Shown here in pieces: positions 3,545 through 41,722 of a stretch of DNA of 64,000 bases. Made by a program: the position numbers and the translations under genes. Position 1 is the first letter of the stretch. Every line of letters starts with the position of its first letter. This DNA is from a virus. The notes under the pieces are model-generated. The model made no database searches, was not told the DNA's origin, and saw only the letters and a list, made by a program, of their open reading frames with translations. The stretch is taken from positions 1 through 64,000 of IMG/VR virus record IMGVR_UViG_3300017917_001194. The stretch is one strand, 5' to 3'.

Positions 3545-4215
3545 CACAAGTGTTAATTGGCAGTCGCGGTGTCATTGGGCAAAGCCTACTCGAACAACAG
3601 TCATTTGACTTAGTGTTTAACAGTGACAATATACAAGACATGACCAATGGCACATATAGCCGGGTTATTTGTGCCGCACCGTCGGGTAATAGATTGGCAA
3701 TAAATCGCGGAGAAATCGACGATCTATCTCAGGTTAAACAAATTGCACAAGTGCTTGACTCATGCTCGATTGGCCAATTGGTATTAATTAGTACTGTGGA
3801 TGTTATAACAGATCCTACTAGCACGTACGGCGCCAACAGACTACACTTAGAAGCTTGTGTACAACAACATGCAAACCATTATATACTGCGCTTGTGTACG
3901 CTGGTTGGACAACATATTAAAAAGAACATGTTATTTGATTTAACAAATAATTTGTATATTGATAAAATCGACGGCCAGGCGCAATTACAGTGGTGCATAT
4001 TAGATGATATTGTTAATCAACTCAAACTAGCAGAAAAGAATAACACACGCACGGTTAACTTAGTTAGTGAACCTATTGTCAATGAAAAAATAGCTGAACA
4101 ATTTTTTCCTGAGGTTAAATTAACAGCATTTGATACTAATAAAAAATATAATCTAACTCCTTATGTTTATACACAACAGCAAATATTTACGGCCATTGAA
4201 AGATATTTAAAATGA
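3541..4215 (+). CDS. NAD(P)-binding SDR-like epimerase/reductase
   Basis: A 224-aa protein resembling a short extended-SDR sugar epimerase. The N-terminus has a glycine-rich nucleotide-binding turn (IGSRGVIGQSL, residues 6-16); later an S-T-V-D-V stretch precedes YGANR, where SDRs have YxxxK, so the catalytic Lys is Arg here. It is shorter than the usual 300-aa epimerases. The start overlaps the previous stop (ATGA). It sits between a glycosyltransferase-like and an SGNH-like gene, consistent with a role in sugar or side-chain chemistry. Confidence 0.6.
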   Translation: MTQVLIGSRGVIGQSLLEQQSFDLVFNSDNIQDMTNGTYSRVICAAPSGNRLAINRGEIDDLSQVKQIAQVLDSCSIGQLVLISTVDVITDPTSTYGANRLHLEACVQQHANHYILRLCTLVGQHIKKNMLFDLTNNLYIDKIDGQAQLQWCILDDIVNQLKLAEKNNTRTVNLVSEPIVNEKIAEQFFPEVKLTAFDTNKKYNLTPYVYTQQQIFTAIERYLK

Positions 4216-4811
4216 TTTATATTTGCGGAGATAGCTTTGGCGTAAGTGATCGAGATTATGGTCCATGTTGGGTGGACTTGTTGCGCGAGCGTGTGAACCA
4301 GCCTGTGATTAATTTAAGTCAAGTGTGTGCAAGTAATTTAATGATAGCTCAACAGGTAGATCAAGCTCACGCGGCTGATTGGGTAATTGTTCTGTTCACA
4401 GCGTCAACTCGCGGAGAAACTGTCGTCGACGATCGTGTTATTCCTTACAGCATACATAGTTTAGATCATACTACTCCATTTAATAACAATCAATTAAACA
4501 TATTAAAAGAATATACTGCGGAATTCTTTAATTTATCTTTGGAAATATATCGAAATCAATGTATAATAGAATCAGTATTACAGCGATTAGTTGACCGCGG
4601 GCAAAAGTTTTTATTCGACCAAGGTGGTTTTGAACACCCAAGTTTTGGTGGGGCAACAGATTATTTTAAAAAATATGCTGAATATCGCAGTGCGATTAAT
4701 TTATGGGATTATGCTCAAACGAGAGAATATAGACCTTATTATCATATAACAGATATCAGCGTACACCAAATGGTTGCTGACTATTATAAAGGAAAAATCA
4801 ATGAAATCTGA
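4212..4811 (+). CDS. SGNH/GDSL-hydrolase-like protein
   Basis: A 199-aa protein starting MIYICGDSFG, the block I motif (G-D-S) of SGNH hydrolases at residues 6-8. The family hydrolyses or transfers acyl groups, often on polysaccharides. The block V D-x-x-H is not obvious, though a DISVHQ stretch near the C-terminus could supply it. ATGA overlap upstream and an 11-base overlap with the next radical SAM gene. A second phage protein of the same type lies at 50989-51702. Confidence 0.6.
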   Translation: MIYICGDSFGVSDRDYGPCWVDLLRERVNQPVINLSQVCASNLMIAQQVDQAHAADWVIVLFTASTRGETVVDDRVIPYSIHSLDHTTPFNNNQLNILKEYTAEFFNLSLEIYRNQCIIESVLQRLVDRGQKFLFDQGGFEHPSFGGATDYFKKYAEYRSAINLWDYAQTREYRPYYHITDISVHQMVADYYKGKINEI

Positions 4812-6099
4812 CAGCTTTTGTATGGCGCCTTGGGTGCATACATATCTAAGCCCACAAACAGAACGACGCATGTGCTGTGCCAGTAGAGAACCTGCACAAT
4901 CATTTAAACAATATATAGACACTGATGCTGGTACTGGTACATATAATCCGCAAACGTTAGAAGAATGGTGGAATGGTGAACACATGCGTTCAGTGCGTGT
5001 GCGTATGATACGTGGAGAAACATTGCCAGAGTGTGAAGTATGCAACAATAAGCTACTGAACACAGACGTTTACAGGAGTTATTTCTGGCACCTGTTCGGT
5101 CATAATTATTTACAAGTGGTATCAACAACTGACTGGAATACAGGTCATTATAAAGGGGTACCAGTAAGTTGGGATTACAGGTTTAGTAACTTGTGTAATT
5201 TCAAATGCCGTACATGCGGTGATATGTTGTCAAGTGCGTGGGAGTCTGAACAACGTCAACATAATATGATTAACTGGCATGATCCAAAGAATAATTGGAT
5301 GCAACCAGAAGTAAGAAAGGAAATAACCCGTTTCCAAGATGAGCAAATAGAAGCTGAATTTGCTCGCGCTGTGGAAGAACACTGTGTAAAAGAAGTATAT
5401 TGGGTAGGCGGAGAGCCCTTGATGTACGAACAACACTGGCGTTATATGCAACGCATAATTGAGCTAGGCGACGGGCCTAATGTATATGCACGTTACAACA
5501 CCAATTTATCTAGGGTTAACTATAAAGGCGTTGACTTATTTGACGACATTCTTAGCGGGATTCGTGACTGGCAGATATGTGCGTCGCTCGACGGAACGGG
5601 CCGCATTGGAGAATATATTAGAACAGGACTTGCGTATGATCAATGGCTTCAAAACTACCGTAGAGCAGTTGAAGCAAGACGTTACGGACGCCAAGTCAGA
5701 ATTGACTTCACTCTCACCCTCCCAGGTCTATTCTCCATCAATGAAATCCTACAACTTGCTCATGAAACTAGTTCGGAAATCCTGGCTAAAGTAATATTCA
5801 GCTTTAGTCCGGACATCATCCTAAGCCCATTGGCACTGCCACGCAAGTTACTAGACAAGAAGGTCGATAGTCTAGTAACAGCTTGCCCAGATGGCGCACT
5901 TAAAGACGTCTTATTACAATTAAAATCACGCCCAACATTTGAAGAACAATGGCCCGATATTTGTCAAGAGGGTTTAATCAAGGGCAAACAGCGTATACAA
6001 CAGCTAGAACGCATACGTGAGGACACTTACACACTTGCGGATATATTAGAGGAAGATCCAGAAATAGCCGAATGGTATGAAAATATTAGATCAAATTGA
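4801..6099 (+). CDS. Radical SAM twitch protein, third copy
   Basis: A 432-aa paralogue of the two upstream radical SAM proteins: C132-x3-C136-x2-C139 cluster motif, N-terminal FCMAPW with C7, C25-C26 and C78-x2-C81, and GGEP in the barrel. The ATG at 4801 is chosen because its N-terminus aligns with the paralogues. The C-terminal tail (ERIRED ... P-E-I-A-E-W) is the shared family tail. Overlaps the next gene by 23 bases. Confidence 0.87.
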   Translation: MKSDSFCMAPWVHTYLSPQTERRMCCASREPAQSFKQYIDTDAGTGTYNPQTLEEWWNGEHMRSVRVRMIRGETLPECEVCNNKLLNTDVYRSYFWHLFGHNYLQVVSTTDWNTGHYKGVPVSWDYRFSNLCNFKCRTCGDMLSSAWESEQRQHNMINWHDPKNNWMQPEVRKEITRFQDEQIEAEFARAVEEHCVKEVYWVGGEPLMYEQHWRYMQRIIELGDGPNVYARYNTNLSRVNYKGVDLFDDILSGIRDWQICASLDGTGRIGEYIRTGLAYDQWLQNYRRAVEARRYGRQVRIDFTLTLPGLFSINEILQLAHETSSEILAKVIFSFSPDIILSPLALPRKLLDKKVDSLVTACPDGALKDVLLQLKSRPTFEEQWPDICQEGLIKGKQRIQQLERIREDTYTLADILEEDPEIAEWYENIRSN

Positions 6100-20683: not shown

Positions 20684-20926
20684 TCAAGCCTCAACCGGAT
20701 CGTCGAAGATCCAACCTTGTTCACGCAAATATGCACGACCTTGGGCTGTGGATTTCATATTATCCATACGGTCGTGAATGGCATTGATTTCTGCAACAAG
20801 ATACTCTTTGCTTCTCCACTGTTCGGGGGTGGCATTACGTGGTCGCCAACCATAGAAGTCTTTGTGGAAATCACTGTAGTATCCTTGTAGCTCTTCTACA
20901 TCAAAGTCTGTAAATTCACGTGCCAT
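20684..20926 (-). CDS. Conserved 80-aa phage protein
   Basis: An 80-aa acidic protein, aromatic-rich at the N-terminus and helical later. An AGGAGT site precedes the ATG and a consensus promoter lies upstream. I recall similar short proteins in phages but can name no function. Confidence 0.7.
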   Translation of the reverse strand: MAREFTDFDVEELQGYYSDFHKDFYGWRPRNATPEQWRSKEYLVAEINAIHDRMDNMKSTAQGRAYLREQGWIFDDPVEA

Positions 20927-21039: not shown

Positions 21040-21061
21040 AAAAAGCCCACCGAAGTGGGCT
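21040..21061 (-). terminator. Porin terminator
   Basis: AGCCCAC-TTCG-GTGGGCT stem with a stable tetraloop, followed on the minus strand by TTTTTCTT; it lies just after the porin stop. Confidence 0.85.
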
Positions 21062-21086: not shown

Positions 21087-22115
21087 TTAGAATGTGTGAC
21101 GGATACCAACTGAAGCTACAGTTTGGTTAGCACCAGCTAATGGGCTTACAAACTCAGCATACTTTGATGAGCTGGCAGCGTTTTGAGCACTACCACCGTC
21201 TTGGTCTGAACGAGCACCGATTACATAAGCAGTTGTACGCTTGCTCAAGGCATAAGTTGCACCTAAAGCATAAACAGCTGGCTTAGCACCTGCGTCATTG
21301 TCAAACTTGTTGTACTGTGCCAATGCATTGATCTTGCCAGTAACAGGAACAGTTGCACCTACGAAGTAGCCTGATGGCTTGGCAGATGTACCTTCTGTCT
21401 TAGTCTGAGCATAACCTGCATTAACTTTAACAACTTTAGCGTCATAGCTTGCGCCAACGCTAGTTACTTCAGTCTTGGCATAACCAGCTGTAGTTGCGTT
21501 CTTGGCAACATAAGTTGCACCAACGCTTACTGGGCCATATACATAGTCGGCACCGATACCCCATGTGCGACCTGCTGTGCTTGTGCCAGCTACTTCACCT
21601 GCTGAATATTGACCGGTTACAGTCAAACCAGCGATGCTTGCAGTTTGTACTTCAACAGCGTTGCTCAAACGAACAGCTTGATCCAAGTTAACTGTACCAC
21701 TGTTAGTAGCTACCCAACCACCGATGTTGTTACCACCGAATGTGTCGTACTTGATAGCTTGTGTGTAATCGATACGATTGAAACGACCTAAACGTACTGA
21801 ACCTACACCAGCTTGATCTAACTTCAAGAAAGCCGCACGGTGGAACAAATCGTTACCACCTTGGCTACCTACGTCAGCAAGAATCTCGCCTTCAAGATTG
21901 AAGCTAGCCTTCAAGCCGTTACCTAAATCTTCACCACCTGTGATGCCGAAGCGTGATGTTGACAAACCGCCGTTGCTCATGCCAGTTACAGAAGAGCCTG
22001 TACCTTTTGCATTAGTAGCAGTTGTTACACCTAAATCTACAATACCGTAGATAGTCTGAGCAGAAGCCAGACCCGTGGCCGCGGCCAATAGTGTTGCAAT
22101 AACTAGTTTTTTCAT
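21087..22115 (-). CDS. Gram-negative outer-membrane porin
   Basis: A 342-aa porin. It has a signal peptide (MKKLVIATLLAAATGLASA, cleavage near residue 19), a mature start QTIYGIVDLG typical of betaproteobacterial porins, alternating beta strands (SRFGITGGEDLG, LGRFNR) and a C-terminal Phe (IRHTF) needed for BAM recognition. Length fits 16-strand trimeric porins. It has its own promoter, a leader of about 100 bases and a terminator, so it is an independent unit. A porin in a lytic phage may block superinfection or raise nutrient uptake; both are inference. Lambdoid phage PA-2 Lc is a known phage porin. Confidence 0.92.
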   Translation of the reverse strand: MKKLVIATLLAAATGLASAQTIYGIVDLGVTTATNAKGTGSSVTGMSNGGLSTSRFGITGGEDLGNGLKASFNLEGEILADVGSQGGNDLFHRAAFLKLDQAGVGSVRLGRFNRIDYTQAIKYDTFGGNNIGGWVATNSGTVNLDQAVRLSNAVEVQTASIAGLTVTGQYSAGEVAGTSTAGRTWGIGADYVYGPVSVGATYVAKNATTAGYAKTEVTSVGASYDAKVVKVNAGYAQTKTEGTSAKPSGYFVGATVPVTGKINALAQYNKFDNDAGAKPAVYALGATYALSKRTTAYVIGARSDQDGGSAQNAASSSKYAEFVSPLAGANQTVASVGIRHTF

Positions 22116-22226
22116 CGTTTCTCCTTTATATGAAATTGTGATATGTAAAATATATCATGATGATAGTGTGTTAAACACTTTGTGGACTAGAATAATACTT
22201 ATCTAATCTCAGTGTTACTACTTAAT

Positions 22227-22254
22227 TTTATACTACTTTTCGGCATAAAGTCAA
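22227..22254 (-). promoter_or_regulatory. Porin promoter
   Basis: TTGACT (22254-22249), 16-base spacer, TATAAA (22232-22227). The predicted mRNA has a leader of roughly 105 bases before the ATG, long for this genome and a possible site for regulation. An AAGGAG site precedes the ATG. Confidence 0.7.
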
Positions 22255-22624: not shown

Positions 22625-22869
22625 TTATGTTTTAGATAATCAAATACATCGCCGTACTCATAGAACCCGCCACCTGGACTCGTATGATACCTGCGATAGA
22701 CAGTTTGGCTGGGCCAATACCACTTACCCCGAACACGCTTGGGTAGACGTAATCTGTATGGTTGCCATGCCTGTTCTATCTTGATACGTTGTTCCATCTC
22801 CGCAAAATCTTTTTCCATTTTAGCAATTATACGATTGATGGTATTAGCACGTTTTTGACTTATGTTCAT
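22621..22869 (-). CDS. Small array protein 12
   Basis: An 82-aa basic protein with a helical, charged N-terminal half (KANTINRI... with Arg/Lys/Glu) and an aromatic C-terminal half. 4-base overlaps on both sides. No tail motif; its place in the array is by position. Confidence 0.62.
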   Translation of the reverse strand: MNISQKRANTINRIIAKMEKDFAEMEQRIKIEQAWQPYRLRLPKRVRGKWYWPSQTVYRRYHTSPGGGFYEYGDVFDYLKHK

Positions 22870-23162
22870 TGTTCAGTAATATACTTTAATTGAAACCAAC
22901 TTTGTGTCGCTTGGTTGAAAAAATCTAAATGTATCTGATCTTCATAGTGATATCGATGATCAAATTCAGATACCAGTGCGTCATCGTGTACATTAAATGG
23001 AACTAATCCTTTGTGGCGTCTAACAGTAAATCCAAGTTCGCGTTTCATCTTCCACGTGATCATAATACTAGGACCATAGTCTCTTATTAACTGTCGGCTT
23101 ATGCTCTCCCACTCACGAGGCTTGTGAAATATAATTAAGTTTTTCTTAACGGTTATCTTCAC
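22866..23162 (-). CDS. Small array protein 11, WFQLKY tail
   Basis: A 98-aa protein ending ATQSWFQLKY plus four residues, a match to the array signature. Its stop overlaps the next start by 4 bases. Confidence 0.68.
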   Translation of the reverse strand: MKITVKKNLIIFHKPREWESISRQLIRDYGPSIMITWKMKRELGFTVRRHKGLVPFNVHDDALVSEFDHRYHYEDQIHLDFFNQATQSWFQLKYITEQ

Positions 23163-23429
23163 TTACAGTTCTTTGGCTTGTAGTTTCAACCAGGTTATAA
23201 TTTTTGGATCACATTTCTTGTGTACATCGCGTCCGTGCTCGCGAACTAATAGAATACCATTGGCATTTTCTAACCAAACGCGACTGGCCATTTGAAAGCA
23301 GGCATTGTGTAAAATCTTTTGACCAGTGCCATCAAGTTCTTCGGGGTGATATCCACGCTGAAAGGCATAACGCACAGGTTCGTTAAACAATTTAGTTCCT
23401 TGCGGAAATTCGTAGTAGTAATCAATCAT
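23163..23429 (-). CDS. Small array protein 10
   Basis: An 88-aa protein from ATG 23429, whose ATG overlaps the upstream TGA; a GTG further out is less likely. The tail IITWLKLQ is a loose version of the array signature. A KKCD turn precedes it. Confidence 0.65.
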   Translation of the reverse strand: MIDYYYEFPQGTKLFNEPVRYAFQRGYHPEELDGTGQKILHNACFQMASRVWLENANGILLVREHGRDVHKKCDPKIITWLKLQAKEL

Positions 23430-23710
23430 TTTGTTTTCCACTTTAATGAGAACATTGTAGCATCTTTTGCTTCTTCAAACAACCATTTACCCAGATGTTC
23501 TTGATGTTGACCTGTACAGTTTTGGTCTACCCAGTTCTTAACCTCCATCCAGGTTTGAGTATCATCGCCATCTCCACGATAGTAATCAACTTCAACCACA
23601 GCCCAGCCGACTCGTATCATAACATCGCATAGAACATCAAAGTCCATAGTGTGTTGCATTTCTTCAGCTAGCTCATCTACAATAACGCCTTCTAGTTCTC
23701 TTCCGTTCAT
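23426..23710 (-). CDS. Small array protein 9, MFSLKW tail
   Basis: A 94-aa acidic protein from ATG 23710 (ATGA coupling to the upstream stop). It ends EAKDATMFSLKW plus TK: the clear array signature D-A-T-x-F-x-L-K-W. The body is rich in Asp/Glu and has a WMEVKNWV stretch. Confidence 0.7.
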   Translation of the reverse strand: MNGRELEGVIVDELAEEMQHTMDFDVLCDVMIRVGWAVVEVDYYRGDGDDTQTWMEVKNWVDQNCTGQHQEHLGKWLFEEAKDATMFSLKWKTK

Positions 23711-23934
23711 ACGCACCTCAGAGCAAATTCCACAGCCTTGGCTCGATCTTTGAAGAAGTAGTAATATCCATCTTCGGTGAACGTACAATACGCCCACTCA
23801 CCTTTTGGTACATGGTCCCAACACCAAGCGGTTTGTGACAGCAACTTATTATATCCAGCGTTAACCATGTGAGGGAAGGACTCGAGATACACATCAATCA
23901 CTCGATTCATTCTGGCTCGTTCTTTTCTACTCAT
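23707..23934 (-). CDS. Small array protein 8, FALRCV tail
   Basis: A 75-aa protein from ATG 23934, coupled by ATGA. Ends DRAKAVEFALRCV, so the usual W of the signature is C. The body has a WCWDHVPKGEW stretch followed by an aromatic patch YYYFF. Confidence 0.68.
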   Translation of the reverse strand: MSRKERARMNRVIDVYLESFPHMVNAGYNKLLSQTAWCWDHVPKGEWAYCTFTEDGYYYFFKDRAKAVEFALRCV

Positions 23935-24122
23935 TGTGCCCATTTTAACCTAAACCAAGTAGCATCGCGTTCTTCTGTAAACAACACTGAGATAGATTTA
24001 TTCCTACCACGCACACCTAGGTGTAAAAAACTTGCTAACTGTTGAGCATCTAACGAAATCTCACCGCGTCTATCCCACGCACGATCTCCCGTAAGGTCAA
24101 CTCTATAAGCACCAGTAGTCAT
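23931..24122 (-). CDS. Small array protein 7, WFRLKW tail
   Basis: A 63-aa protein from ATG 24122 (ATGA coupling). It ends EERDATWFRLKWAQ, a full signature match. Confidence 0.68.
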   Translation of the reverse strand: MTTGAYRVDLTGDRAWDRRGEISLDAQQLASFLHLGVRGRNKSISVLFTEERDATWFRLKWAQ

Positions 24123-24343
24123 GACCACCTTAATTTAAACACTACAGCATCCTGCTCGTGAGCAAAGTGATAGATGTTTTCTGCCCATTTAGCAGTAACA
24201 CACCAAGGATGATCTTCGTCAACTTGATCTCTGTGTGGAGCAAGAGCACCTACATTATCCAATAACCAACAATGAATGACTTCTTCAGTTTGAACCACAC
24301 GCTCAATCATATGCAATGGTAAACTAACTTCTGCTCGAATCAT
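24119..24343 (-). CDS. Small array protein 6, FKLRW tail
   Basis: A 74-aa protein ending EQDAVVFKLRWS. The middle has W-C-V-T-A-K-W. Overlaps both neighbours by 4 bases. Confidence 0.7.
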   Translation of the reverse strand: MIRAEVSLPLHMIERVVQTEEVIHCWLLDNVGALAPHRDQVDEDHPWCVTAKWAENIYHFAHEQDAVVFKLRWS

Positions 24344-24555
24344 GCAAATCTCAACAAGAATCCTGTGTACTTCTTTTCATCTACAACTTTGATAAACATT
24401 TCTCCATGCTCTATACCCCATTGTTCCAGCAACCATTCGCGGTATCCTTCTGGGTAACTCTGCATGGGAGTGTCGAACTCTCGACCATAAAAGTCAATAG
24501 CACGTTGTACAGCGTCCCAATTGATCACTCTTTTATCCATCATCATTATAGTCAT
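24340..24555 (-). CDS. Small array protein 5, FLLRF tail
   Basis: A 71-aa protein ending EKKYTGFLLRFA, the variant with Phe in the last aromatic position. An ATGA overlap joins it to both neighbours. Confidence 0.68.
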   Translation of the reverse strand: MTIMMMDKRVINWDAVQRAIDFYGREFDTPMQSYPEGYREWLLEQWGIEHGEMFIKVVDEKKYTGFLLRFA

Positions 24556-24776
24556 CCAAACCTCAACATAAAAGCAGTATAGTCAGCATCGTCAGGGAAC
24601 TCAATCCAGAACTTGGTATCTTCCCAAAAGTACTTTCGATGACTCATATGGTGTAATCCAAAGTGCTCACGCCACAATGCACCCATGATTTTAGGAGTAA
24701 CGGGTTCCATAGACATTATGACTTGGCTGGCACGATTGTATGCTTCACCTAGTTGTTCTCTAGTGGTTTTGACCAT
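24552..24776 (-). CDS. Small array protein 4, FMLRF tail
   Basis: A 74-aa protein ending DADYTAFMLRFG, close to array protein 5 (YTGFLLRF). Helical N-terminal half. It overlaps the upstream gene by 17 bases. Confidence 0.68.
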   Translation of the reverse strand: MVKTTREQLGEAYNRASQVIMSMEPVTPKIMGALWREHFGLHHMSHRKYFWEDTKFWIEFPDDADYTAFMLRFG

Positions 24777-25104
24777 TTGGAAAGCTCAACATAAACCAGT
24801 TTAGTGTAGCATCATCGGCAATATACAATCTATACTCTGAATACTTGATTGAGTATGCCCATGCTTTATTGTGTTCAGCAACTTCTTTATCACGTGTGGC
24901 CTTAATAATCTCGGCACGTGTTTCTACATCCTGGCTCCAACCAAATTTCTCGTTGAACCAACGACGGCATTGATCGAATTCCAATACTCCTGTGCGTAGC
25001 ATAATTCGTCTAATATCAGGTCGTTGACGTTTAAACTCAACCATCCACGCAAAGTCACTGTGCCAAGCATGTCGTTTATCAAGTTTAGTTACAGTATAGT
25101 TCAT
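24760..25104 (-). CDS. Small array protein 3 (duplicate of protein 1b)
   Basis: A 114-aa protein from ATG 25104. It is a clear recent duplicate of the 25513-25851 product: both start MNY-T/E and share TKLD-x-RH-x-WH and EFD-x-x-RRWFNEKFGWSQD. Tail DATLNWFMLSFP. The duplication shows the array grows by gene copying. Confidence 0.75.
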   Translation of the reverse strand: MNYTVTKLDKRHAWHSDFAWMVEFKRQRPDIRRIMLRTGVLEFDQCRRWFNEKFGWSQDVETRAEIIKATRDKEVAEHNKAWAYSIKYSEYRLYIADDATLNWFMLSFPNGQNH

Positions 25105-25328
25105 TCTAATCCCCACTTCATAACGAACGCTAGGTAATCCTTTTCCTTATGAAACTGATAGTACACAGGATTCCAACCGGACCAACAATACCTGCGACCC
25201 TTGCCTTTGCGTCCGTAGTTCTTGATCAACCAATCGGCACGTTGCTCGTCTACGAACCAATCGTCACCTGATAACGATACATAATATTTCCAGTATCTCC
25301 GCGAGTAACGTTTTTGTTTAGAGTTCAT
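25101..25328 (-). CDS. Small array protein 2, FVMKW tail
   Basis: A 75-aa very basic N-terminus (KQKRYSRRYWKYY), then a WFVDEQ region, ending KDYLAFVMKWGLE. The start at 25328 is set by ATGA overlap. Confidence 0.68.
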   Translation of the reverse strand: MNSKQKRYSRRYWKYYVSLSGDDWFVDEQRADWLIKNYGRKGKGRRYCWSGWNPVYYQFHKEKDYLAFVMKWGLE

Positions 25329-25516
25329 GCCCACCTCAAAGCAAACATTATAGCATCATCTACCAATTCAAATCTAGCACGACGTGTAGCGGTGCCAGGA
25401 GGGCCATAGATATTATAGTTGCCCTTGCAGTTATCTCTGCACCACTGATGTAGGGCTTCGATATCTTTGTATCGTGTGACACGAGCAGTAACTTCAGTCC
25501 AAGGTTGATTGATCAT
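25325..25516 (-). CDS. Small array protein 1c, FALRW tail
   Basis: A 63-aa protein from ATG 25516. Tail VDDAIMFALRWA, the most typical signature form. ATGA coupling on both sides. Confidence 0.68.
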   Translation of the reverse strand: MINQPWTEVTARVTRYKDIEALHQWCRDNCKGNYNIYGPPGTATRRARFELVDDAIMFALRWA

Positions 25517-25851
25517 TTGTCCACCTTTGGATGACTTAGAACAAACCAATTGAGTGTGGCATCATCGTGTACATAAATTCTATAATCGTTGTACTTGATT
25601 GAATAGGCCCAAGCAGTATTAAACGCTTCTGGTAATTTGTCAAGTGGTGCTGATTTGATTATACTAGCACGAGTTTCTACATCCTGGCTCCACCCAAACT
25701 TTTCATTAAACCAACGACGACTCCGATCAAACTCTAGCACTCCAGTAGTGGTGTGTGGTGCATTGATGCGACTTTTCTTAAACTCAATCATCCACTTAAA
25801 TGACTGGTGCCACGAGTGTCTGTGATCTAACTTGGTTATTTCATAGTTCAT
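25513..25851 (-). CDS. Small array protein 1b
   Basis: A 112-aa paralogue of the 24760-25104 product, with tail DATLNWFVLSHP. It starts one base away from the stop of the first array gene. The two copies differ mostly in the middle, which argues for divergence under some selection. Confidence 0.75.
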   Translation of the reverse strand: MNYEITKLDHRHSWHQSFKWMIEFKKSRINAPHTTTGVLEFDRSRRWFNEKFGWSQDVETRASIIKSAPLDKLPEAFNTAWAYSIKYNDYRIYVHDDATLNWFVLSHPKVDK

Positions 25852-25852
25852 G

Positions 25853-26107
25853 TTATGACCATTTTAATTGCAACATCGTCATAATATCTTGTCGTCTGAT
25901 TTGATATTGGTGATTGCCCATATTATGATATTGCTTACCAGACCAGTTTCTTTCCCATGGTGTTAACCCGGATGCCGGAGTGCGTTGTTCGGCACCAAAT
26001 GTTTGAGTAAGCCACTCATATAAATCGTCGGACTTATCATCAACTGCTACAGTCCAATGAGGATGATTATATCCGTTTCTGTGTTTTTGTATATATTTGA
26101 TTTTCAT
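25853..26107 (-). CDS. Small array protein 1a, first gene of the array
   Basis: An 84-aa protein ending IMTMLQLKWS. First gene of the tip-to-tail array; a TAAGGG site lies 5 bases before its ATG and a large hairpin lies in front of it. The middle has TPWERNWSG. Function of the family is unknown. Confidence 0.7.
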   Translation of the reverse strand: MKIKYIQKHRNGYNHPHWTVAVDDKSDDLYEWLTQTFGAEQRTPASGLTPWERNWSGKQYHNMGNHQYQIRRQDIMTMLQLKWS

Positions 26108-26188: not shown

Positions 26189-27274
26189 TTAGGCGCTTGC
26201 CTGTAAAATGTACTTGCCGTAGCGTTGGTGGAACTCGTCAAAGTTCTTCAACTTAGTAGGCTGGAATGGAAGATTATAGGTTGTCAAAGCAATCCTTGCC
26301 CCCATCACAACCAACTCAGTTTCAAAGTTCTTCATCATGTAAGCAAAGAATCTATCTGCCATTTCATGGAACTTCTTGTCCTCAACCTTCTTCTCTACAG
26401 CACCTTTCAACTCATAGCACATAGAAATCACTAGCGAATACATAGCTGACACTTCCTTGACATCCAAGCTGTCAGTTTTACCTGACAAGATGTCTTCTGG
26501 CTTGGGCATACGTCCAGCAATCTTGCGGTGTGCCATAAATTTAACAGCAAGGCCTTCACCTACAGTACCTGCGATCAAGTTCATTGTGGTGTCATCATCG
26601 TGATCTTCGTCCTCTAACAACTGGCTCACGAATGTCCATGAACGTGGTGTGGCAAAAGCACGTGACGCTGACTTGGCATCAAAATCATACAAGTCTTGCT
26701 TGGCGAAGCTCAAGTAACCTACTACGTCCTTGTGGATTTTGTTTTGTACAGCCCACTCTTGCCAGCTAGGGAAGTCCACACGCATTTCCTGGTGAACAAA
26801 GCGGTTGGCAAGTGGTGTTGGCATACGGAATGTTACACCTTTGTCCGACTCTCTGTTACCTGCGGCAACCAAAACTACATTGTCTGGCAATGTATATTTG
26901 CCGATACGACGGTTCAAGATCAACTGATAAGCGGCGGCCTGAACTGAAGGTGCGGCAGAGTTCATCTCATCCAAGAATAGCACAACAATAGGATACTGAC
27001 TAGCTAGTTCTTGACTTGGCAAGTCGATAGGCTCGGCCCAGTCCATCTTACCCAAGTCCTTATTGTAGTAAGGAATACCACGGATATCGGTGGGCTCCAT
27101 CTGACCTAGACGCAAGTCAATCATATAACCACCTAGTTCTTGGGTGATACCCTCAACTAGTTCTGACTTACCAATTCCTGGAGGACCCCAAAGGAACAAT
27201 GGGCGTTTGGCTTTAAATGCTTTGAGCAAACTTTTGCGAGCTTGCGAACTTGTAACTGTTCTTGATTCTGACAT
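26189..27274 (-). CDS. MoxR-family AAA+ ATPase
   Basis: A 361-aa AAA+ ATPase: Walker A GPPGIGKSE near residue 31, Walker B VVLFLDEMNSA, sensor-like AAGNRES and arginine-rich TPLANRF. MoxR ATPases work with VWA proteins as chaperones or for metal and cofactor insertion; the VWA/metallopeptidase partner is at 19330-20628. It has its own TTGACC-class promoter and an AAGGA site. Confidence 0.88.
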   Translation of the reverse strand: MSESRTVTSSQARKSLLKAFKAKRPLFLWGPPGIGKSELVEGITQELGGYMIDLRLGQMEPTDIRGIPYYNKDLGKMDWAEPIDLPSQELASQYPIVVLFLDEMNSAAPSVQAAAYQLILNRRIGKYTLPDNVVLVAAGNRESDKGVTFRMPTPLANRFVHQEMRVDFPSWQEWAVQNKIHKDVVGYLSFAKQDLYDFDAKSASRAFATPRSWTFVSQLLEDEDHDDDTTMNLIAGTVGEGLAVKFMAHRKIAGRMPKPEDILSGKTDSLDVKEVSAMYSLVISMCYELKGAVEKKVEDKKFHEMADRFFAYMMKNFETELVVMGARIALTTYNLPFQPTKLKNFDEFHQRYGKYILQASA

Positions 27275-27967: not shown

Positions 27968-28531
27968 TTACATACAAGGACCGTTGCCGTTCCTGAATCC
28001 AACTGTGCCACCTTCTTCTTGAATACGCTTGATTACGTCTTCAAACAAGATGGGTGCAAAGTCGGGAGTTTGTTCTACACAAACACAATGGTACCGTAAA
28101 TCTATAGCACCATCTTTCATTACACGAGCACCGTGCAAGTGACCATGAATGTTTACACCAAATCTACCCAACGACGCATCGTGGATAGGAATGTGTGATA
28201 AGATCATTCCGTTCATCACATGGTAAGCACGAAGTTCTCTAAAGTATTGACGATAGTCATCATCTCTAAAGATATCGTGGTTGCCACGGATTAACACTTT
28301 GTCACCATTCAAACGTGCCAATGTAGTCAAAGCTCTGCGGTTAATAACCACATCGCCTAAATGGTACACTTTGTCCTTTGGACCTACACGCTCGTTCCAT
28401 GCCTTGACCATAGCTTCATCCATTTCTGCTGGATCATCCCATGGACGCATTTTAGACCCGTCTGCGTTGGTAAAGCGGCACACGCCTGCATGACCAAAGT
28501 GCGTGTCGCTAACTAAAAATACTGCTGGCAT
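27968..28531 (-). CDS. Calcineurin-like metallophosphoesterase
   Basis: A 187-aa phosphoesterase with all family motifs: SDTHFGH at 8-14, GDVV, GNHD, a HIPIH block and GHLHG. Small members hydrolyse cyclic nucleotides, phosphodiesters or RNA 2',3'-cyclic ends; the phage substrate cannot be read. Own promoter (28559-28587), GGAGGG site and own terminator make it a single-gene unit. Confidence 0.9.
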   Translation of the reverse strand: MPAVFLVSDTHFGHAGVCRFTNADGSKMRPWDDPAEMDEAMVKAWNERVGPKDKVYHLGDVVINRRALTTLARLNGDKVLIRGNHDIFRDDDYRQYFRELRAYHVMNGMILSHIPIHDASLGRFGVNIHGHLHGARVMKDGAIDLRYHCVCVEQTPDFAPILFEDVIKRIQEEGGTVGFRNGNGPCM

Positions 28532-35628: not shown

Positions 35629-35717
35629 TGGCGGAGAGTATAGGATTCGAACCTATGCACCGTTATACACAGTGACGGATTAGCAATCCGTTGCATTAAC
35701 CACTCTGCCAACTCTCC
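35629..35717 (-). tRNA. tRNA-Ser(GCT)
   Basis: Acceptor GGAGAGT pairs with the 3' strand, CCA encoded, anticodon loop TTGCTAA, long variable arm, T-loop TTCGAAT. First of the tRNA cluster at its 3' side. Confidence 0.93.
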
Positions 35718-35722
35718 TAATT

Positions 35723-35798
35723 TGGTGCTGGAGAAAGGAATCGAACCCTCGACATCCGCATTACAAGTGCGGCGCTCTACCGTCTGAGCTACTCCAGC
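35723..35798 (-). tRNA. tRNA-Thr(TGT)
   Basis: Acceptor GCTGGAG, anticodon loop CTTGTAA, CCA encoded. Its 5' end lies one base after the stop of the HNH gene at 35800. Confidence 0.93.
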
Positions 35799-35799
35799 T

Positions 35800-36237
35800 T
35801 TAAAAACTTTTACCTTCGAGATATCTTTGCTTTCTAAAATGTCTTCCATTGCCTCTATTCTTGCCTTTATATGTTTCTGTTTGGCTATGACAATTTGGAC
35901 AAATCATTGCTAAGTTATCTTCAGTTTGATTTTGGCTATTACCATCAACGTGTTCCACCTCAAGTGTCAGTGGCTTACCGTTCCATTCTATTGTGCCGCA
36001 TATAGCACAACAGTGATTCTGTTTTTCTAACAGATATCTTTTAATATGAACGCTTACACCGTTTGGTCCTGCGCCTACTCTTAATCCTTCTTTCCATTCC
36101 TTAACGTATCTTTTATATTGAGCAGTTTGTTGGCATTTTATCGAACAGTAAATATTTTTCTTACCAGGATGATAATTTGCTTCTGTACCACAATCAATAC
36201 ACAAATATGTTTTAGGGTTAATTCTCTTTTTTGCCAT
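35800..36237 (-). CDS. HNH endonuclease with zinc ribbon
   Basis: A 145-aa HNH endonuclease. N-terminal ribbon (C-I-D-C ... C-S-I-K-C), then a C-A-I-C-G ribbon and the HNH core LEVEHVDGNSQNQ with N-L-x-x-I-C-P-N-C-H. It shares TYKGKNRG with the HNH at 38780-39169, so the two are paralogues. It ends one base before tRNA-Thr. Its start region forms a hairpin holding a late promoter (36238-36272), so translation is probably restricted to late transcripts. Confidence 0.87.
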   Translation of the reverse strand: MAKKRINPKTYLCIDCGTEANYHPGKKNIYCSIKCQQTAQYKRYVKEWKEGLRVGAGPNGVSVHIKRYLLEKQNHCCAICGTIEWNGKPLTLEVEHVDGNSQNQTEDNLAMICPNCHSQTETYKGKNRGNGRHFRKQRYLEGKSF

Positions 36238-36272
36238 GGTATAGCACTCCTTACATTTATTTATGCTATACC
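36238..36272 (-). promoter_or_regulatory. HEG start hairpin with late promoter in loop
   Basis: GGTATAGC (36272-36265) and GCTATACC (36245-36238) form an 8-bp stem directly before the ATG. The loop holds CATAAATA (36265-36258) and the AAGGAG site (36252-36247). A transcript from upstream would fold this; one starting at the late promoter would lack the 5' arm. Confidence 0.7.
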
Positions 36273-36280
36273 AATGAATT

Positions 36281-36469
36281 TTACTCTGCGGCTTCTACCA
36301 CAGGAGGCGTGTAGCCTAATTTTTGAATACGGCGTTGAATTTTAGCCACAATTTTTTTCTTACTTGCACGTTCTAACAGTTTAACCAACTGTGGTCCATT
36401 GAGACTGACAATCTTTACTTCACCGGATTTGGTGTAACCTGGCTTCTTACGATTTAATTTCTTTGACAT
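36281..36469 (-). CDS. 62-aa basic protein
   Basis: ATG at 36469 preceded by AGGAGT. Basic, with helical KLLERASKKKIVAKIQRRIQKLG and a Pro/Glu tail. No homologue I can name; ribosomal or RNA-binding roles would fit its charge. It lies between two tRNAs. Confidence 0.62.
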   Translation of the reverse strand: MSKKLNRKKPGYTKSGEVKIVSLNGPQLVKLLERASKKKIVAKIQRRIQKLGYTPPVVEAAE

Positions 36470-36520
36470 TATTGACTCCTTTGTTCTACTTATTTTAGTT
36501 GTTGTTGCCGATAAAAGTTT

Positions 36521-36605
36521 TGGTACGAGGGGCGGGATTCGAACCCGCAAGGCTATTCGCCGCTGGATTTTAAATCCAGTGTGTAGACCGTTCCACCACC
36601 CTCGC
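36521..36605 (-). tRNA. tRNA-Leu(TAA)
   Basis: 85 bases, anticodon loop TTTAAAA, long variable arm, CCA encoded, acceptor GCGAGGG. Confidence 0.92.
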
Positions 36606-36611
36606 AAAATC

Positions 36612-36890
36612 TTATATAGCGTCTGACAAGTTGGCCCAGGTAATATCCTTGGGATCAACGATGGCTACATTGTATTCGTACTTACGCAATAACTTCTGAG
36701 GTGGTACGGCACGACGTGGCATACCATTAACCTTGCCTGCTGTTGAATCAATTGGTTGTACCCAAACAAAAGTCTTGGAAAACTTAACCACACGTGCAAT
36801 CACAATACGGTTATTAGCCACAGTGAATACGTGTTGCCCGATTTCTAATGGTTTGCCTAGTAGATCCTTAACAACATAATCGTTAATCAT
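36612..36890 (-). CDS. 92-aa hypothetical phage protein, SH3/KOW-like
   Basis: ATG 36890 with AGGAGTTAG upstream. Starts MINDYVVKDLLGKPLEIGQHVFTV; the 'G-x-x-V-F-T' plus IVIARVVKFSKTFVWVQP suggests a small beta-barrel. Unknown function. It sits between tRNA-Leu and tRNA-Gly. Confidence 0.68.
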   Translation of the reverse strand: MINDYVVKDLLGKPLEIGQHVFTVANNRIVIARVVKFSKTFVWVQPIDSTAGKVNGMPRRAVPPQKLLRKYEYNVAIVDPKDITWANLSDAI

Positions 36891-36907
36891 ACTAACTCCT
36901 ATATAGT

Positions 36908-36981
36908 TGGAGCAGGGTAAGGGAATCGAACCCTCCGCTCTAGCTTGGAAGGCTAGGGTATTACCACTATACGAACCCTGC
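36908..36981 (-). tRNA. tRNA-Gly(TCC)
   Basis: Acceptor GCAGGGT, anticodon loop CTTCCAA, T-loop TTCGATT, CCA encoded. Confidence 0.92.
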
Positions 36982-37024
36982 ATTTATAATAATATAACAC
37001 AATCTACTATACTTGTCAATTAGG

Positions 37025-37109
37025 TGGTGCCCCAGGTGAGACTCGAACTCACACGCCTTTTGGGCAACGGCTTCTAAGACCGTCATGGCTACCATTACAT
37101 CACCGGGGC
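37025..37109 (-). tRNA. tRNA-Leu(TAG)
   Basis: 85 bases, acceptor GCCCCGG, anticodon loop CTTAGAA, long variable arm, CCA encoded. Confidence 0.92.
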
Positions 37110-37114
37110 ATATT

Positions 37115-37205
37115 TGGAGGAAGAGGTGGGATTCGAACCCACGGATCGCTCATCACGATCGCTAGTTTTCAAGACTAGAGCCATCAACCACTCGACCACT
37201 CTTCC
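37115..37205 (-). tRNA. tRNA-Ser(TGA)
   Basis: 91 bases, acceptor GGAAGAG, anticodon loop CTTGAAA, long variable arm, CCA encoded. Confidence 0.92.
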
Positions 37206-37206
37206 A

Positions 37207-37281
37207 TGGTAGTAGTGGTAAGATTCGAACTTACACCGGACCGCGTATGAAGCGGGCGCACTACCGTTATGCTACACTACC
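37207..37281 (-). tRNA. tRNA with CAT anticodon (Met or lysidine-Ile)
   Basis: Acceptor GGTAGTG, anticodon loop TTCATAC, CCA encoded. One of three CAT tRNAs; without modification data elongator Met and Ile2 cannot be separated. Its 5' base overlaps the late octamer of the next gene. Confidence 0.88.
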
Positions 37282-37288
37282 ATAAATA
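37281..37288 (+). promoter_or_regulatory. T4-type late promoter octamer CATAAATA
   Basis: Exactly five bases before the ATG at 37294; predicted late start on the A of ATG. Confidence 0.6.
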
Positions 37289-37293
37289 TTACT

Positions 37294-37800
37294 ATGAGAA
37301 TAAAAGAGATTTTAACTGAAGCACATCACAGCATCATACTAACCATGCCAATTGGACCATGGAAAGTGCAAATCGATTCTCATGCGTATGCTACATTACC
37401 TGCTCGTAATATTCCGTTAGAAAACTTTACCAATATGATAAGTTATATGTGTTATCTACCGGATGTTCTTCCGACAATTCCTGTTGGGCGCGGTGCATAT
37501 TTTCAAGACACAAATACTGCTATTTCAATATATGTAACACGTGTAGCTGACAATGTCGTTAGAGTAGAAACAGTGTTGGACCGCACAATGAAGCCAAAGC
37601 AACCTTTATTCCGCAGACCAGTGCCTGCACCGGACATGAAAAATCTTAAGCCTGTTGACTACAGCGCAATAAAGGCTGATGTACAAGCCCGCGGTAGAGA
37701 TGCAGTTAGTCAAGACTTGGAAAAAACTCTACAACCTATCACACCCGTTAACCGAGCTGAGCGAAGAAAATTCGCCAAAGTAATGCGTCGTTTAAAATAA
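37294..37800 (+). CDS. Hypothetical late phage protein
   Basis: A 168-aa protein starting MRIKEILTEAHH, the kind of amphipathic start I associate with phage structural or packaging accessory proteins, and ending in a basic NRAERRKFAKVMRRLK helix. It lies on the plus strand inside the minus-strand tRNA cluster and has the same leaderless late-promoter design as the homing genes, although no endonuclease motif is visible. Confidence 0.6.
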   Translation: MRIKEILTEAHHSIILTMPIGPWKVQIDSHAYATLPARNIPLENFTNMISYMCYLPDVLPTIPVGRGAYFQDTNTAISIYVTRVADNVVRVETVLDRTMKPKQPLFRRPVPAPDMKNLKPVDYSAIKADVQARGRDAVSQDLEKTLQPITPVNRAERRKFAKVMRRLK

Positions 37801-37836
37801 TCTACCATATAAAAATACTCTTGTGTAAAAATGTTT

Positions 37837-38016
37837 TTATATGGTGGGACTGCTCGGATTCGAACCGAGACTCTTACCGGTTAAAAGCCGGATGTTTTGG
37901 CCAGTTAAACTACAATCCCTCATTTTCTCTTTACGTCGTAGAGCTTTGTTGCTCTTGCGGTGCGAGCCCGCCTTCCGTTTATTTGCTAGTACAGCAAATG
38001 GATTTCTTGGTTTCAT
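37837..38016 (-). CDS. 59-aa basic protein whose frame covers tRNA-Lys
   Basis: ATG 38016 with a strong AAAGGAG site. Starts MKPRNPFAVLANKRKAGSHRK, a very basic small protein type I recall in T4-like phages (M-x-x-R-N-P). The frame stays open through the whole tRNA-Lys and stops just beyond its CCA, so about the last 26 residues are encoded by the tRNA gene. The real protein may end this way, or the tRNA may have been inserted into its 3' part. Confidence 0.55.
   Translation of the reverse strand: MKPRNPFAVLANKRKAGSHRKSNKALRRKEKMRDCSLTGQNIRLLTGKSLGSNPSSPTI
37842..37919 (-). tRNA. tRNA-Lys(TTT)
   Basis: Acceptor GGGATTG, anticodon loop CTTTTAA, CCA encoded. It lies inside the open frame of the 59-aa gene, same strand. 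Confidence 0.92.
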
Positions 38017-38038
38017 TTTATTCTCCTTTGTTAAAAAT

Positions 38039-38113
38039 TGGCCCGCCGTGCAGGAATCGAACCCACATTCTAGAGGTAGAAGCTCTATGTCCTATCCATT
38101 GAACGAACGGCAG
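38039..38113 (-). tRNA. tRNA-Arg(TCT)
   Basis: Acceptor CTGCCGT/ACGGCGG, anticodon loop CTTCTAC, CCA encoded. Confidence 0.9.
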
Positions 38114-38118
38114 TTATT

Positions 38119-38213
38119 TGGTAGCAGATCTAGGATTTGAACCTAGCCGTTCCGGCCCATCTAGCCAGTCTCCAGAGTTTATAAGTCTCCGCCGCACTCC
38201 AGTGCTATCTGCC
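38119..38213 (-). tRNA. Class II tRNA, anticodon uncertain (TAT as read)
   Basis: 95 bases with acceptor GGCAGAT/ATCTGCT, T-arm CTAGG-TTCAAAT-CCTAG and CCA. The D-arm is reduced (GCAC-TGGA-GTGC) and the anticodon stem has an A-A mismatch next to loop CTTATAA, giving UAU. A long variable arm is not expected for Ile, so identity is doubtful; it may be a degenerate or novel tRNA. Confidence 0.6.
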
Positions 38214-38214
38214 T

Positions 38215-38290
38215 TGGGGTGCTGTATGGGACTCGAACCCATATTAACGGAATCACAATCCGTGGTGTTAACCTTTACACTAACTGCACC
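38215..38290 (-). tRNA. tRNA-His(GTG)
   Basis: Anticodon loop TTGTGAT, G-1 opposite C73, CCA encoded. Confidence 0.92.
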
Positions 38291-38291
38291 A

Positions 38292-38765
38292 TTAACCGTT
38301 GGCTATATTAAGGCTCTTGTACCTATCTGCCGCATAGCTAGCCGCGAATGCTCGGGGCTTGACCATTGGAATAACATTACAAGTACCACGGATATAACCT
38401 ATGGCTTGACCGCATACGTTAGAACTAGCGTAGTGTTCATCTGGGTTTAAGTCTAGGTGAACTTCAACATGGCGATTTTCTAGTACGTCTGCTAATTTTA
38501 AATACAATTCACTTGCTTTATACACTTCGGTCATCAAGCGAGTGTTAGGACGATCCACGCGATCATAATCACGTTCACGTGAGACTTCGCCAAATATCTT
38601 ACAGCCATTGTTGCCGTTGATGTGTACAACTATAACCGCTGTATAGTCCGCATACCACGCATGATTTACTTGTAATCGTTCACTATCCACACCGATATAA
38701 ATTTTAGTATCTGGTGTTTGTGCTTCAATGAACGCTTTTAATGCTGGTATGTCAAACTTTTTCAT
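38292..38765 (-). CDS. YkuK/DUF458-family RNase H-like protein
   Basis: A 157-aa RNase H-fold protein: IYIGVDSE at 21-28 (first Asp of the catalytic set), VHLDLNPDE in the middle and a C-terminal GYIRG...KPRAFAASYAAD block. This matches the YkuK (DUF458) family, predicted RNase H-like nucleases. The gene ends one base from tRNA-His. Confidence 0.85.
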   Translation of the reverse strand: MKKFDIPALKAFIEAQTPDTKIYIGVDSERLQVNHAWYADYTAVIVVHINGNNGCKIFGEVSRERDYDRVDRPNTRLMTEVYKASELYLKLADVLENRHVEVHLDLNPDEHYASSNVCGQAIGYIRGTCNVIPMVKPRAFAASYAADRYKSLNIANG

Positions 38766-38779
38766 TTAATCCTCACTGG

Positions 38780-39169
38780 TTAATTTGTTGGTAAACCTCT
38801 TGCCGCTCTGCCTTTACCCCTGTTTTTTCCTTTATAGGTGTCAGTAGTAGCATGACAATTAGGACATAGCAATCTTAAATTTTCTAACTTATTATTACCG
38901 GCATTGCCATCTATGTGATCTAAATCTAAAGGTATTTTGTTACCTAACCAAGTTTTACCCTTGCACATAGAACATTGATGTCCTTGTATTTTTTTCACAA
39001 ACTCTCTAATAGCCGGGCGTGACCAAACAGAATAGTCACCTTCTTCTAATTTTTTCAGATTATTTTGCTGTCGACCTTCAAAGTAACATTTACGACAACA
39101 ATACATATTAGAGTTACTCAATCGTTTAGGCATAAACGATGTGTTACAAGTTTTACAAACATAGTCCAT
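38780..39169 (-). CDS. HNH endonuclease with zinc ribbon
   Basis: A 129-aa HNH protein: N-terminal CKTCNTSF ribbon, C-S-M-C ribbon, HNH core LDLDHIDGNAGNNKLENLRLLCPNCH, and the TYKGKNRG tail shared with 35800-36237. A start-site hairpin (39171-39204) with a late-promoter-like CTAAATAC in its loop precedes it. Confidence 0.87.
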   Translation of the reverse strand: MDYVCKTCNTSFMPKRLSNSNMYCCRKCYFEGRQQNNLKKLEEGDYSVWSRPAIREFVKKIQGHQCSMCKGKTWLGNKIPLDLDHIDGNAGNNKLENLRLLCPNCHATTDTYKGKNRGKGRAARGLPTN

Positions 39170-39170
39170 A

Positions 39171-39204
39171 ACATTATTCTCCTATATCGTATTTAGTATA
39201 ATGT
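39171..39204 (-). promoter_or_regulatory. HEG start hairpin with late-promoter-like loop
   Basis: ACATTAT (39204-39198) pairs with ATAATGT (39177-39171); the loop holds CTAAATAC (39196-39189) and AGGAG (39183-39179). Same layout as at 36238-36272. Confidence 0.62.
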
Positions 39205-39212
39205 CATTATTT

Positions 39213-39286
39213 TGGTGCTTCGTGAAAGAATCGAACTTCCGTGTCCCACTTGTAAGGAGGGCATTCTGCCATTAAATTAACGAAGC
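39213..39286 (-). tRNA. tRNA-Val(TAC)
   Basis: Acceptor GCTTCGT, anticodon loop CTTACAA, CCA encoded; one mismatch (T-T) in the anticodon stem. Confidence 0.9.
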
Positions 39287-39291
39287 ATGCG

Positions 39292-39368
39292 TGGCCGGTC
39301 TTGCAGGATTCGAACCCACCACCCCCTGGTTCGTAGCCAGGTACTCTATCCAAATGAGCTAAAGACCG
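39292..39368 (-). tRNA. tRNA-Arg(ACG)
   Basis: Acceptor CGGTCTT/AAGACCG, anticodon loop CTACGAA, CCA encoded. The A34 would need deamination to inosine by host TadA. Confidence 0.92.
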
Positions 39369-39463
39369 AAGTATAACCCAGGGCTACCAGAGTAAAAATC
39401 ACACGTCTAACAGCATGTCATTTACTGTAGATTACTGTAGGTAGTGGGCTGGGCCGTTATAAC

Positions 39464-39537
39464 TGGTAGCCAGAACAAGAATTGAACTTGTAATAATCGC
39501 TTATCAAGCGACCGTTATACCATTTAACTATCCGGCT
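39464..39537 (-). tRNA. tRNA-Ile(GAT)
   Basis: Acceptor AGCCGGA/TCTGGCT, anticodon loop TTGATAA, CCA encoded. Confidence 0.9.
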
Positions 39538-39538
39538 G

Positions 39539-39616
39539 TGGTCTCGGGTGAGGGATTCGAACTCTCGTTATTCCTGGTCCCAAACCAGGTGCCATACCAG
39601 ACTAGGCGAACCCGAG
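39539..39616 (-). tRNA. tRNA-Pro(TGG)
   Basis: Acceptor CTCGGGT/ACCCGAG, anticodon loop TTTGGGA, CCA encoded. Its 5' end is one base after the stop of the HNH gene at 39618. Confidence 0.92.
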
Positions 39617-39617
39617 T

Positions 39618-40388
39618 TTAAAGTTTTGAATATTTCTCATTCCACACCCTGATTCTTTCTAATAATTCCTCATAGGTGATTGAATTTTTTTTATGTTTTG
39701 AACTATTTTTAGTATGTATAAGTAGTTCACAATTTGCCGGGTGCCTTATATGTTCCACTGGTAAGTTATTATCAAATCCATATCTACAACTAATCATATG
39801 ATCCCTACTTACTCCTCCGGTATTGTTACCTCTATTTGAGGCTTGATACCACCCGTGTGTTTTTATTAAATTAAAATTAAACTCATCTGGGTAATCTTTA
39901 AGATTAAATCTAAATTGACAATCGGCACGATAATTTTGCCATTCTGTTCTCTTTGCCCTTAACGGAATGTTTTTATAATCTATAGCACACTTTTTACAAC
40001 AGAACGTTTTAATTTTACTAAAAGTTTCAAATTGAGAATTACAGTGCTTACATTGTTTACTAATTAATTGTTTGCTCTTGGCCGGCCCTGTTTTAAATTT
40101 TGAATAATCTTTAATAGCATTATTATAAATGGCCGCACAAGAGTTAGAACAAAATTTATTATGTCTTCTATTATACTCAAGTTTAGTACCACATTGAGCA
40201 CATAGATTGGGATTTTTTATATATTTGTCAATAACATCTTCTTGGTGTCGTTTAGCTAAGATATCATATTTGCCGTTATATCCAGAGGAATATTTTGATA
40301 GATTAAGATGCGTTCTATCAACATGAGTAAATATTCCTTTTGCTGATTTAACTTCTTTACAGTATATACAACTACACAGTGTCGGCAT
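39618..40388 (-). CDS. HNH endonuclease with several zinc fingers
   Basis: A 256-aa protein. N-terminal finger C-S-C-I-Y-C with a distal H, two ribbons (CAQCG ... CSNSC; CKHC ... CCKKC) and a C-terminal HNH: GVSRDHMIS, then IRHPANCELL and NSSKHKKNS. It is a paralogue of the plus-strand HNH at 40756 (GISRDHLYS ... IRHPANCELV). A 25-bp hairpin made with the tRNA-Ala acceptor precedes it. Confidence 0.85.
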   Translation of the reverse strand: MPTLCSCIYCKEVKSAKGIFTHVDRTHLNLSKYSSGYNGKYDILAKRHQEDVIDKYIKNPNLCAQCGTKLEYNRRHNKFCSNSCAAIYNNAIKDYSKFKTGPAKSKQLISKQCKHCNSQFETFSKIKTFCCKKCAIDYKNIPLRAKRTEWQNYRADCQFRFNLKDYPDEFNFNLIKTHGWYQASNRGNNTGGVSRDHMISCRYGFDNNLPVEHIRHPANCELLIHTKNSSKHKKNSITYEELLERIRVWNEKYSKL

Positions 40389-40392
40389 TTTT

Positions 40393-40470
40393 CATCTCCA
40401 AAAGTATTTTATACTATTATTTATCATTGGTGGATAATCTAATAGTTAAATTAAAACACTTTTGGAGATG
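40393..40470 (-). promoter_or_regulatory. Long HEG start hairpin using the tRNA-Ala 3' end
   Basis: CATCTCCAAAAGT (40470-40458) pairs with ACTTTTGGAGATG (40405-40393), then TTTTA/TAAAA and ACTATTA/TAATAGT: about 25 bp in all. The 3' arm holds the GGAG site of the HNH gene; the 5' arm is the acceptor 3' strand of tRNA-Ala. GATAAATA (40425-40418) sits in the loop. Confidence 0.78.
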
Positions 40471-40535
40471 GTCAGGATCGAACTGACTACCTTCTGCTTG
40501 CAAAGCAGATGCTCTCCCAAATGAGCTACACCCCC
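40463..40535 (-). tRNA. tRNA-Ala(TGC), CCA not encoded
   Basis: Acceptor GGGGGTG/CATCTCC, anticodon loop TTTGCAA. After the discriminator A comes AAA, not CCA, unlike nearly all others here; the acceptor end is shared with the HNH start hairpin. Confidence 0.9.
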
Positions 40536-40539
40536 GTAA

Positions 40540-40615
40540 TGGAGCAGGATATCGGGTTCGAACCGATGACCTCGACGTTGGCAACGTGGCGCTCTACCAG
40601 CTGAGCTAATCCTGC
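40540..40615 (-). tRNA. tRNA-Gly(GCC)
   Basis: Acceptor GCAGGAT, anticodon loop TTGCCAA, one mismatch in the anticodon stem, CCA encoded. Confidence 0.9.
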
Positions 40616-40621
40616 ATTGTT

Positions 40622-40750: not shown

Positions 40751-40755
40751 TTAGT

Positions 40756-41714: not shown

Positions 41715-41722
41715 AAATTGTA

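Follow-up and report, generated by a model that had tools for sequence, protein, structure and literature searches.

Porins carried by phages are known mainly from lambdoid prophages. Lc of phage PA-2 and the prophage porin NmpC are enterobacterial porins of the OmpC type, borne by temperate phages and acting in lysogens, and Lc has been reported to displace the receptor porin of the cell and thereby exclude other phages. Two proteins of uncultured Caudovirales in BFVD (A0A6J5L4P1 and A0A6J5LP82) are named "OmpC porin," although the names are automatic, and no discussion of either was found in the literature that we searched. The same search, with most subscription journals outside its scope, returned no paper on phage-encoded or jumbo-phage porins; porins go unmentioned in a comparison of 224 jumbo phages (PMC7824862), and a 2026 review of jumbo phages brings porin up as a receptor and in no other role (PMC13282480). 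The existence of phage porins is not new; what is described here is the recurrence of host-type porins in jumbo phages.

The stretch of DNA that we analyzed (the window) is the first 64,000 nucleotides of an 86,396-base virus record (IMGVR_UViG_3300017917_001194), in which a sequence-only reading had singled out a complete outer-membrane porin as an independent phage unit. Completeness was borne out, as the ORF (Table 1) translates without internal stops and its product matches the Pfam profile Porin_4 over residues 6-306 (E 1.4e-45). The match to Porin_1, the profile of OmpC-type porins such as Lc and NmpC, is far weaker (E 8.6e-9), so that the product is not of their type. The likeness to Lc that had been proposed holds in that both are outer-membrane porins resident in a phage; the window porin differs in being a betaproteobacterial Porin_4 protein, and the jumbo phages that carry such porins are not known to pass through lysogeny. 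The signal peptide and C-terminal phenylalanine that had been claimed are both present, as judged by inspection rather than with a dedicated predictor: the leader (MKKLVIATLLAAATGLASA-Q, of the form MKK...ASA before the Q) is hydrophobic (h-region hydropathy 2.2) and contains no Cys, and the mature protein (pI 8.9) ends in ...VGIRHTF.

In an AlphaFold2 model built from a 24-row alignment (pLDDT 80.7), the protein forms a barrel of 16 strands and its L3 is helical; we predict an Omp32-type porin, that is a 16-strand barrel with L3 folded inward. By sequence, the nearest solved structure is Omp32 of Delftia (Comamonas) acidovorans (PDB 1e54, 2fgq), an anion-selective porin that is about 31% identical to its phage-encoded counterpart and covers the entire mature window porin (E 2e-28); the best PDB match of the model is also Omp32, in its structure with malate (2fgq, E 1.2e-25, TM 0.80/0.83). 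Residues Arg38, Arg75, and Arg133 of Omp32, which line its eyelet, and Glu58 are identical in the window porin and are kept in most phage porins. The two Caudovirales proteins in BFVD match the fold (E 4.4e-24 and 5.1e-16, respectively), but are only 21-23% identical to the window porin.

Table 1. Features of the porin locus and its flanks, in window positions.
Feature	Position	Strand	Basis
VWA/DUF2201-type phage gene	19330..20628	-	72-84% identical in 80 relatives
80-aa phage ORF, next downstream of porin	20684..20926	-	58% homologue downstream of L174 phage porin
Intrinsic terminator AGCCCACTTCGGTGGGCTTTTT	21040..21061	-	Folding, shuffles; 22-mer recurs after other phage porins
Porin CDS, 342 aa, Omp32-type Gram-negative porin	21087..22115	-	Pfam profile, fold model, PDB match
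Signal peptide, residues 1-19 (MKKLVIATLLAAATGLASA, then Q)	22059..22115	-	Sequence inspection, hydropathy, N-terminal helix of model
Untranslated leader, about 100 nt	22116..22218	-	Fold test
Shine-Dalgarno AAAGGAG	22121..22127	-	Sequence; strong, 5 bases ahead of ATG
Sigma70-like promoter TTGACT-N18-TAAAAT (plausible only)	22225..22254	-	Consensus score 10 of 12
MoxR-like AAA ATPase, other conserved anchor of region	26189..27274	-	Profile and homologue searches

The porin gene had also been credited with its own promoter, leader, and terminator. The terminator is well founded: the hairpin AGCCCAC-TTCG-GTGGGCT-TTTT has a folding energy of -19.5 kcal/mol (z -3.4, matched by 0% of shuffles), and it was overlooked by an automatic scan because its stem extends into the T tail. 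The leader has the length of about 100 bases that was claimed, and its fold was nothing unusual relative to background (z -1.15). The promoter is plausible, as TTGACT-N18-TAAAAT agrees with the consensus at 10 of 12 positions, however 10% of shuffled upstream regions reach the same score, and the case for it is weaker than had been stated. A terminator lies 12-58 nt past the stop codon in 15 of the 19 phage porin loci. The exact 22-mer of the window terminator also follows phage porins belonging to two further porin lineages (L098:1397-1418; L153:5202-5223 and copies), and elsewhere among the 269 loci it is present only in L032 (3307-3328 and 4019-4040), these phage loci being unrelated to one another. 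In L098, L153, and one of the L032 copies the 22-mer passes directly into a TTGACT promoter-like hexamer. The shared sequence may mark the usual border of a transcription unit, or it may help single-gene units to be exchanged.

The flanks of the porin are phage genes, as the sequence-only reading had described. Genes of the window include a family B DNA polymerase (gp43-type), a GTP cyclohydrolase, a phage Dps-like protein, an NAD synthetase, and the AAA and VWA pair. A search with the VWA gene found 80 viral contigs of up to 364 kb at 72-84% identity; among deposited phages, Sinorhizobium phage Phosso was the best match, and next came the PA5oct/Paride group, at about 46%. Judged by these matches, the window phage belongs with uncultured jumbo phages that are distantly related to PA5oct and Paride. 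The gp43-type polymerase agrees with its earlier description as T4-like, but with jumbo-phage kin "lytic T4-like" is a rough label.

Several other features of these genomes were recorded. The window carries 24 tRNA genes (35629-46903), 23 of them within 35.6-42.2 kb. Adjoining the AAA-VWA pair, at 22866-26107 on the minus strand, is an array of roughly a dozen short ORFs (65-123 aa). Many of them share a C-terminal motif such as F.LRW, and the array varies among relatives. The stretch 152-6099 encodes a radical SAM-like protein (PHROG 14086); its gene and the ORFs beside it match the same places in related loci and are possibly paralogues, and a Nol-like carbamoyltransferase comes next. Two related loci, L100 and L269 (G070, a 10-kb phage fragment), encode, near a VWA homologue, a substrate-binding protein of the urea type (PF13433, E 6e-167) together with a small outer-membrane barrel-like protein. 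In a related phage record of 208,932 bases (L101, G068), the gene of a small secreted barrel-like protein precedes that of an MFS-type transporter.

Porins above the Pfam cut-off are present in 14 of the 80 related viral records (which range up to 364 kb), with a nearly identical porin common to four of the 14 (G016-G019). Searches with sub-alignments of phage porins, used as queries as the alignment of all porins (A1) was too diverged, found more porins in contigs classed as viral, and in about two dozen of these contigs counterparts of window phage genes are no more than a few kb away. In many of them the porin is flanked by homologues of window 47641-48295 and 27968-28531, or else sits a few kb before the AAA gene, unlike the window porin, which is on the opposite side of AAA, ahead of VWA. 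An arrangement of the porin and then a homologue of the 80-aa ORF is common to L174 and the window. A clean empty site was sought in an 84% relative (L004), where two other small ORFs take the place of the porin and an insertion junction could not be drawn. As a lone query the window porin retrieved just two named bacterial contigs and nothing viral, in searches from which near copies of the window record were possibly excluded. Among 50,697 deposited phage records it matches one, an unannotated 9.9-kb fragment, and the porin of L139, a related phage, matches none; PHROGs contains no family that covers these phage porins. The earlier remark that a porin is unusual in such a phage is accordingly apt for deposited phages, but within the related lineage porins recur.

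It had been noted that the porin segment might prove to be a host-derived chimera of assembly. As an incomplete linear contig whose near copies possibly lay outside the searches, the window record leaves some room for an assembly chimera, host contamination, or a functionless passenger. We nevertheless regard these explanations as extremely improbable. Related phages in many independent assemblies carry porins beside homologues of window phage genes, which speaks against a chimera peculiar to this record, and the nearest bacterial match is only 45% identical. The GC content and codon use of the window porin lie inside the range of phage genes and low-GC host porins, and far from the high-GC gene of an Omp32-like porin. 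In addition, the dN/dS ratios of eight phage-phage porin pairs were 0.08-0.19, values of purifying selection, and we conclude therefore that the gene is kept for its product.

A porin phylogeny had been proposed as a means of host assignment, and it placed the nearest bacterial relatives of the phage porins mostly in one small-genome genus of Burkholderiales. Against Burkholderiales genomes at large, the best matches of the window porin were 33-44% identical (top-scoring 39-41%), and in one species-rich genus with genomes of 1.2-2.9 Mb the two best chromosomal porins were 42-45% identical (best E 1.3e-60). This nearest genus is probably Polynucleobacter, a name based on the small genomes, the number of species, and the GC content (41-45% in the loci used). 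The major porin of this presumed host genus (L179-L234; G306, G157, and others) is 44-57% identical to the L139 phage porin among the best matches checked. In the tree, phage porins occupy three places within the major-porin clade of the host genus (clade support 100%), and small phage porins of 277-296 aa, with Porin_4 matches (L093, L094, L095, L097, and L098), fall near small porins of that genus (support 89). The window porin groups with L183 and L184 (support 86), beside a second chromosomal porin of the host genus at 45% identity, and one further phage-porin cluster has no close host; the deep branches are weakly supported. A purely phage clade, which appeared in a tree without the host genus, split into three places once the genus was added and was discarded. 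The simplest reading of these placements is that phages have captured porins repeatedly.

The surface loops of the host major porin are long and highly variable, whereas those of the phage copies are short and fixed. With strands mapped from the window porin model to define loop boundaries, the surface loops without L3 sum to 151-162 residues in phage porins (n = 14, stemming from about three capture events and so not independent of one another) and to 157-229 residues in host porins (n = 44). Loops L1, L4, L5, and L8 are shorter in the phage copies (p 0.001 to 2e-6, uncorrected for kinship), whereas the pore-lining L3 and all seven periplasmic turns have no phage-host difference (14 vs. 44 porins). 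The sums are 161-162 in capture B vs. 199-214 in its sister hosts, and 159 in capture C vs. 173-200 in its likely host neighbors, although one host neighbor of capture A, L198, is equally short (157). Compared at equal strand identity (0.5-0.7), phage porins of one capture differ in surface-loop length by 4.5-6.6 residues, and host porins differ from each other by 34-37; between captures the difference is 12.4 (strand identity 0.5-0.6). Length differences in L3 at equal strand identity are not smaller among phages. Loop sequence identity at equal strand divergence is also higher in phages (0.45 vs. 0.28 in hosts). In the major-porin lineage, then, the outer loops of the host appear to turn over, as expected for phage receptors, and those of the phage copies do not. 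The pattern covers that lineage. The window porin belongs to a different type, for which there are only two close host comparators, and their loops differ little from its own.

Purifying selection, kinship with host porins, and constant short loops together fit a replacement pore that maintains uptake without added receptor sites. The reading toward which we lean, with confidence a little short of evenly balanced, is that the phage porin, a host-type protein repeatedly captured from the Burkholderiales host, is a working replacement pore that sustains uptake without receptor loops. In outline, the jumbo-phage lineage would repeatedly capture a porin from its host and produce it during infection from a single-gene unit, and the host Sec and BAM machinery would export it, adding an Omp32-like pore to the outer membrane of the infected cell. 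The pore would sustain uptake of small solutes (probably anions) during infection, and its short, non-variable outer loops would withhold receptor sites from further phages or from the cell's own progeny. Expression, membrane insertion, uptake, and avoidance of adsorption are steps that we infer, and the surface-loop data, which come from a sister porin lineage, favor a pore that would avoid being a receptor. Some observations sit poorly with a replacement pore: existing host porins persist in the membrane through one infection, further uptake genes are seldom seen in these phages, and Paride, the closest relative in culture whose receptor is known, binds the LPS core (PMC10761892). The LPS receptor of Paride also tells against superinfection exclusion proper, by which the phage porin would displace a host porin that serves other phages as receptor. 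That explanation draws on the common use of porins as phage receptors (PMC8594841) and on the three phage lineages carrying kin of the host's major, hypervariable-loop porin with the outer loops trimmed. We consider it unlikely, as a lytic infection gives existing porins little time to be diluted and no regulator acting on host porin synthesis came to light.

The pore arginines, kept as in anion-selective Omp32 (solved with malate), and the presence of a urea-binding protein on one related fragment and a transporter on another, would suit a plain uptake enhancer, whose extra pores would bring more phosphate or organic acids into a slow-growing, oligotrophic host and whose loop shortening would reflect only relaxed selection. 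Short, fixed loops could indeed be mere release from the host-phage arms race, but uptake enhancement alone does not predict loops that are also conserved in sequence (0.45 vs. 0.28), and uptake genes are otherwise rare in related records. An uptake-gene cluster as a general feature of these phages was considered and set aside, with the urea-binding protein in 1 of 43 records (L100). We judge this explanation rather improbable. An outer-membrane barrel with its own terminator, and so separable in production from its neighbors, might instead act late, weakening the outer membrane or being shed in vesicles as a decoy and thus aiding lysis or shielding progeny; the consensus-like promoter resembles those that host sigma70 recognizes, as do promoters before other window genes, which argues against a late-only class, and we think late action very unlikely.

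Beyond the replacement pore itself, it is possible, though to our minds doubtful, that a lineage of freshwater jumbo phages has repeatedly taken porins of the host genus, the most exposed one included, and evolved them into receptor-silent pores as exchangeable single-gene cassettes; the pore and constriction loop would be retained and the outward loops shortened and frozen. With a jumbo-phage family that keeps re-acquiring host porins, the genes that phages carry would be connected both with arms races over receptors and with uptake in nutrient-poor lakes. Natural short-loop porins with matched host versions would offer a test of which loops phages need.
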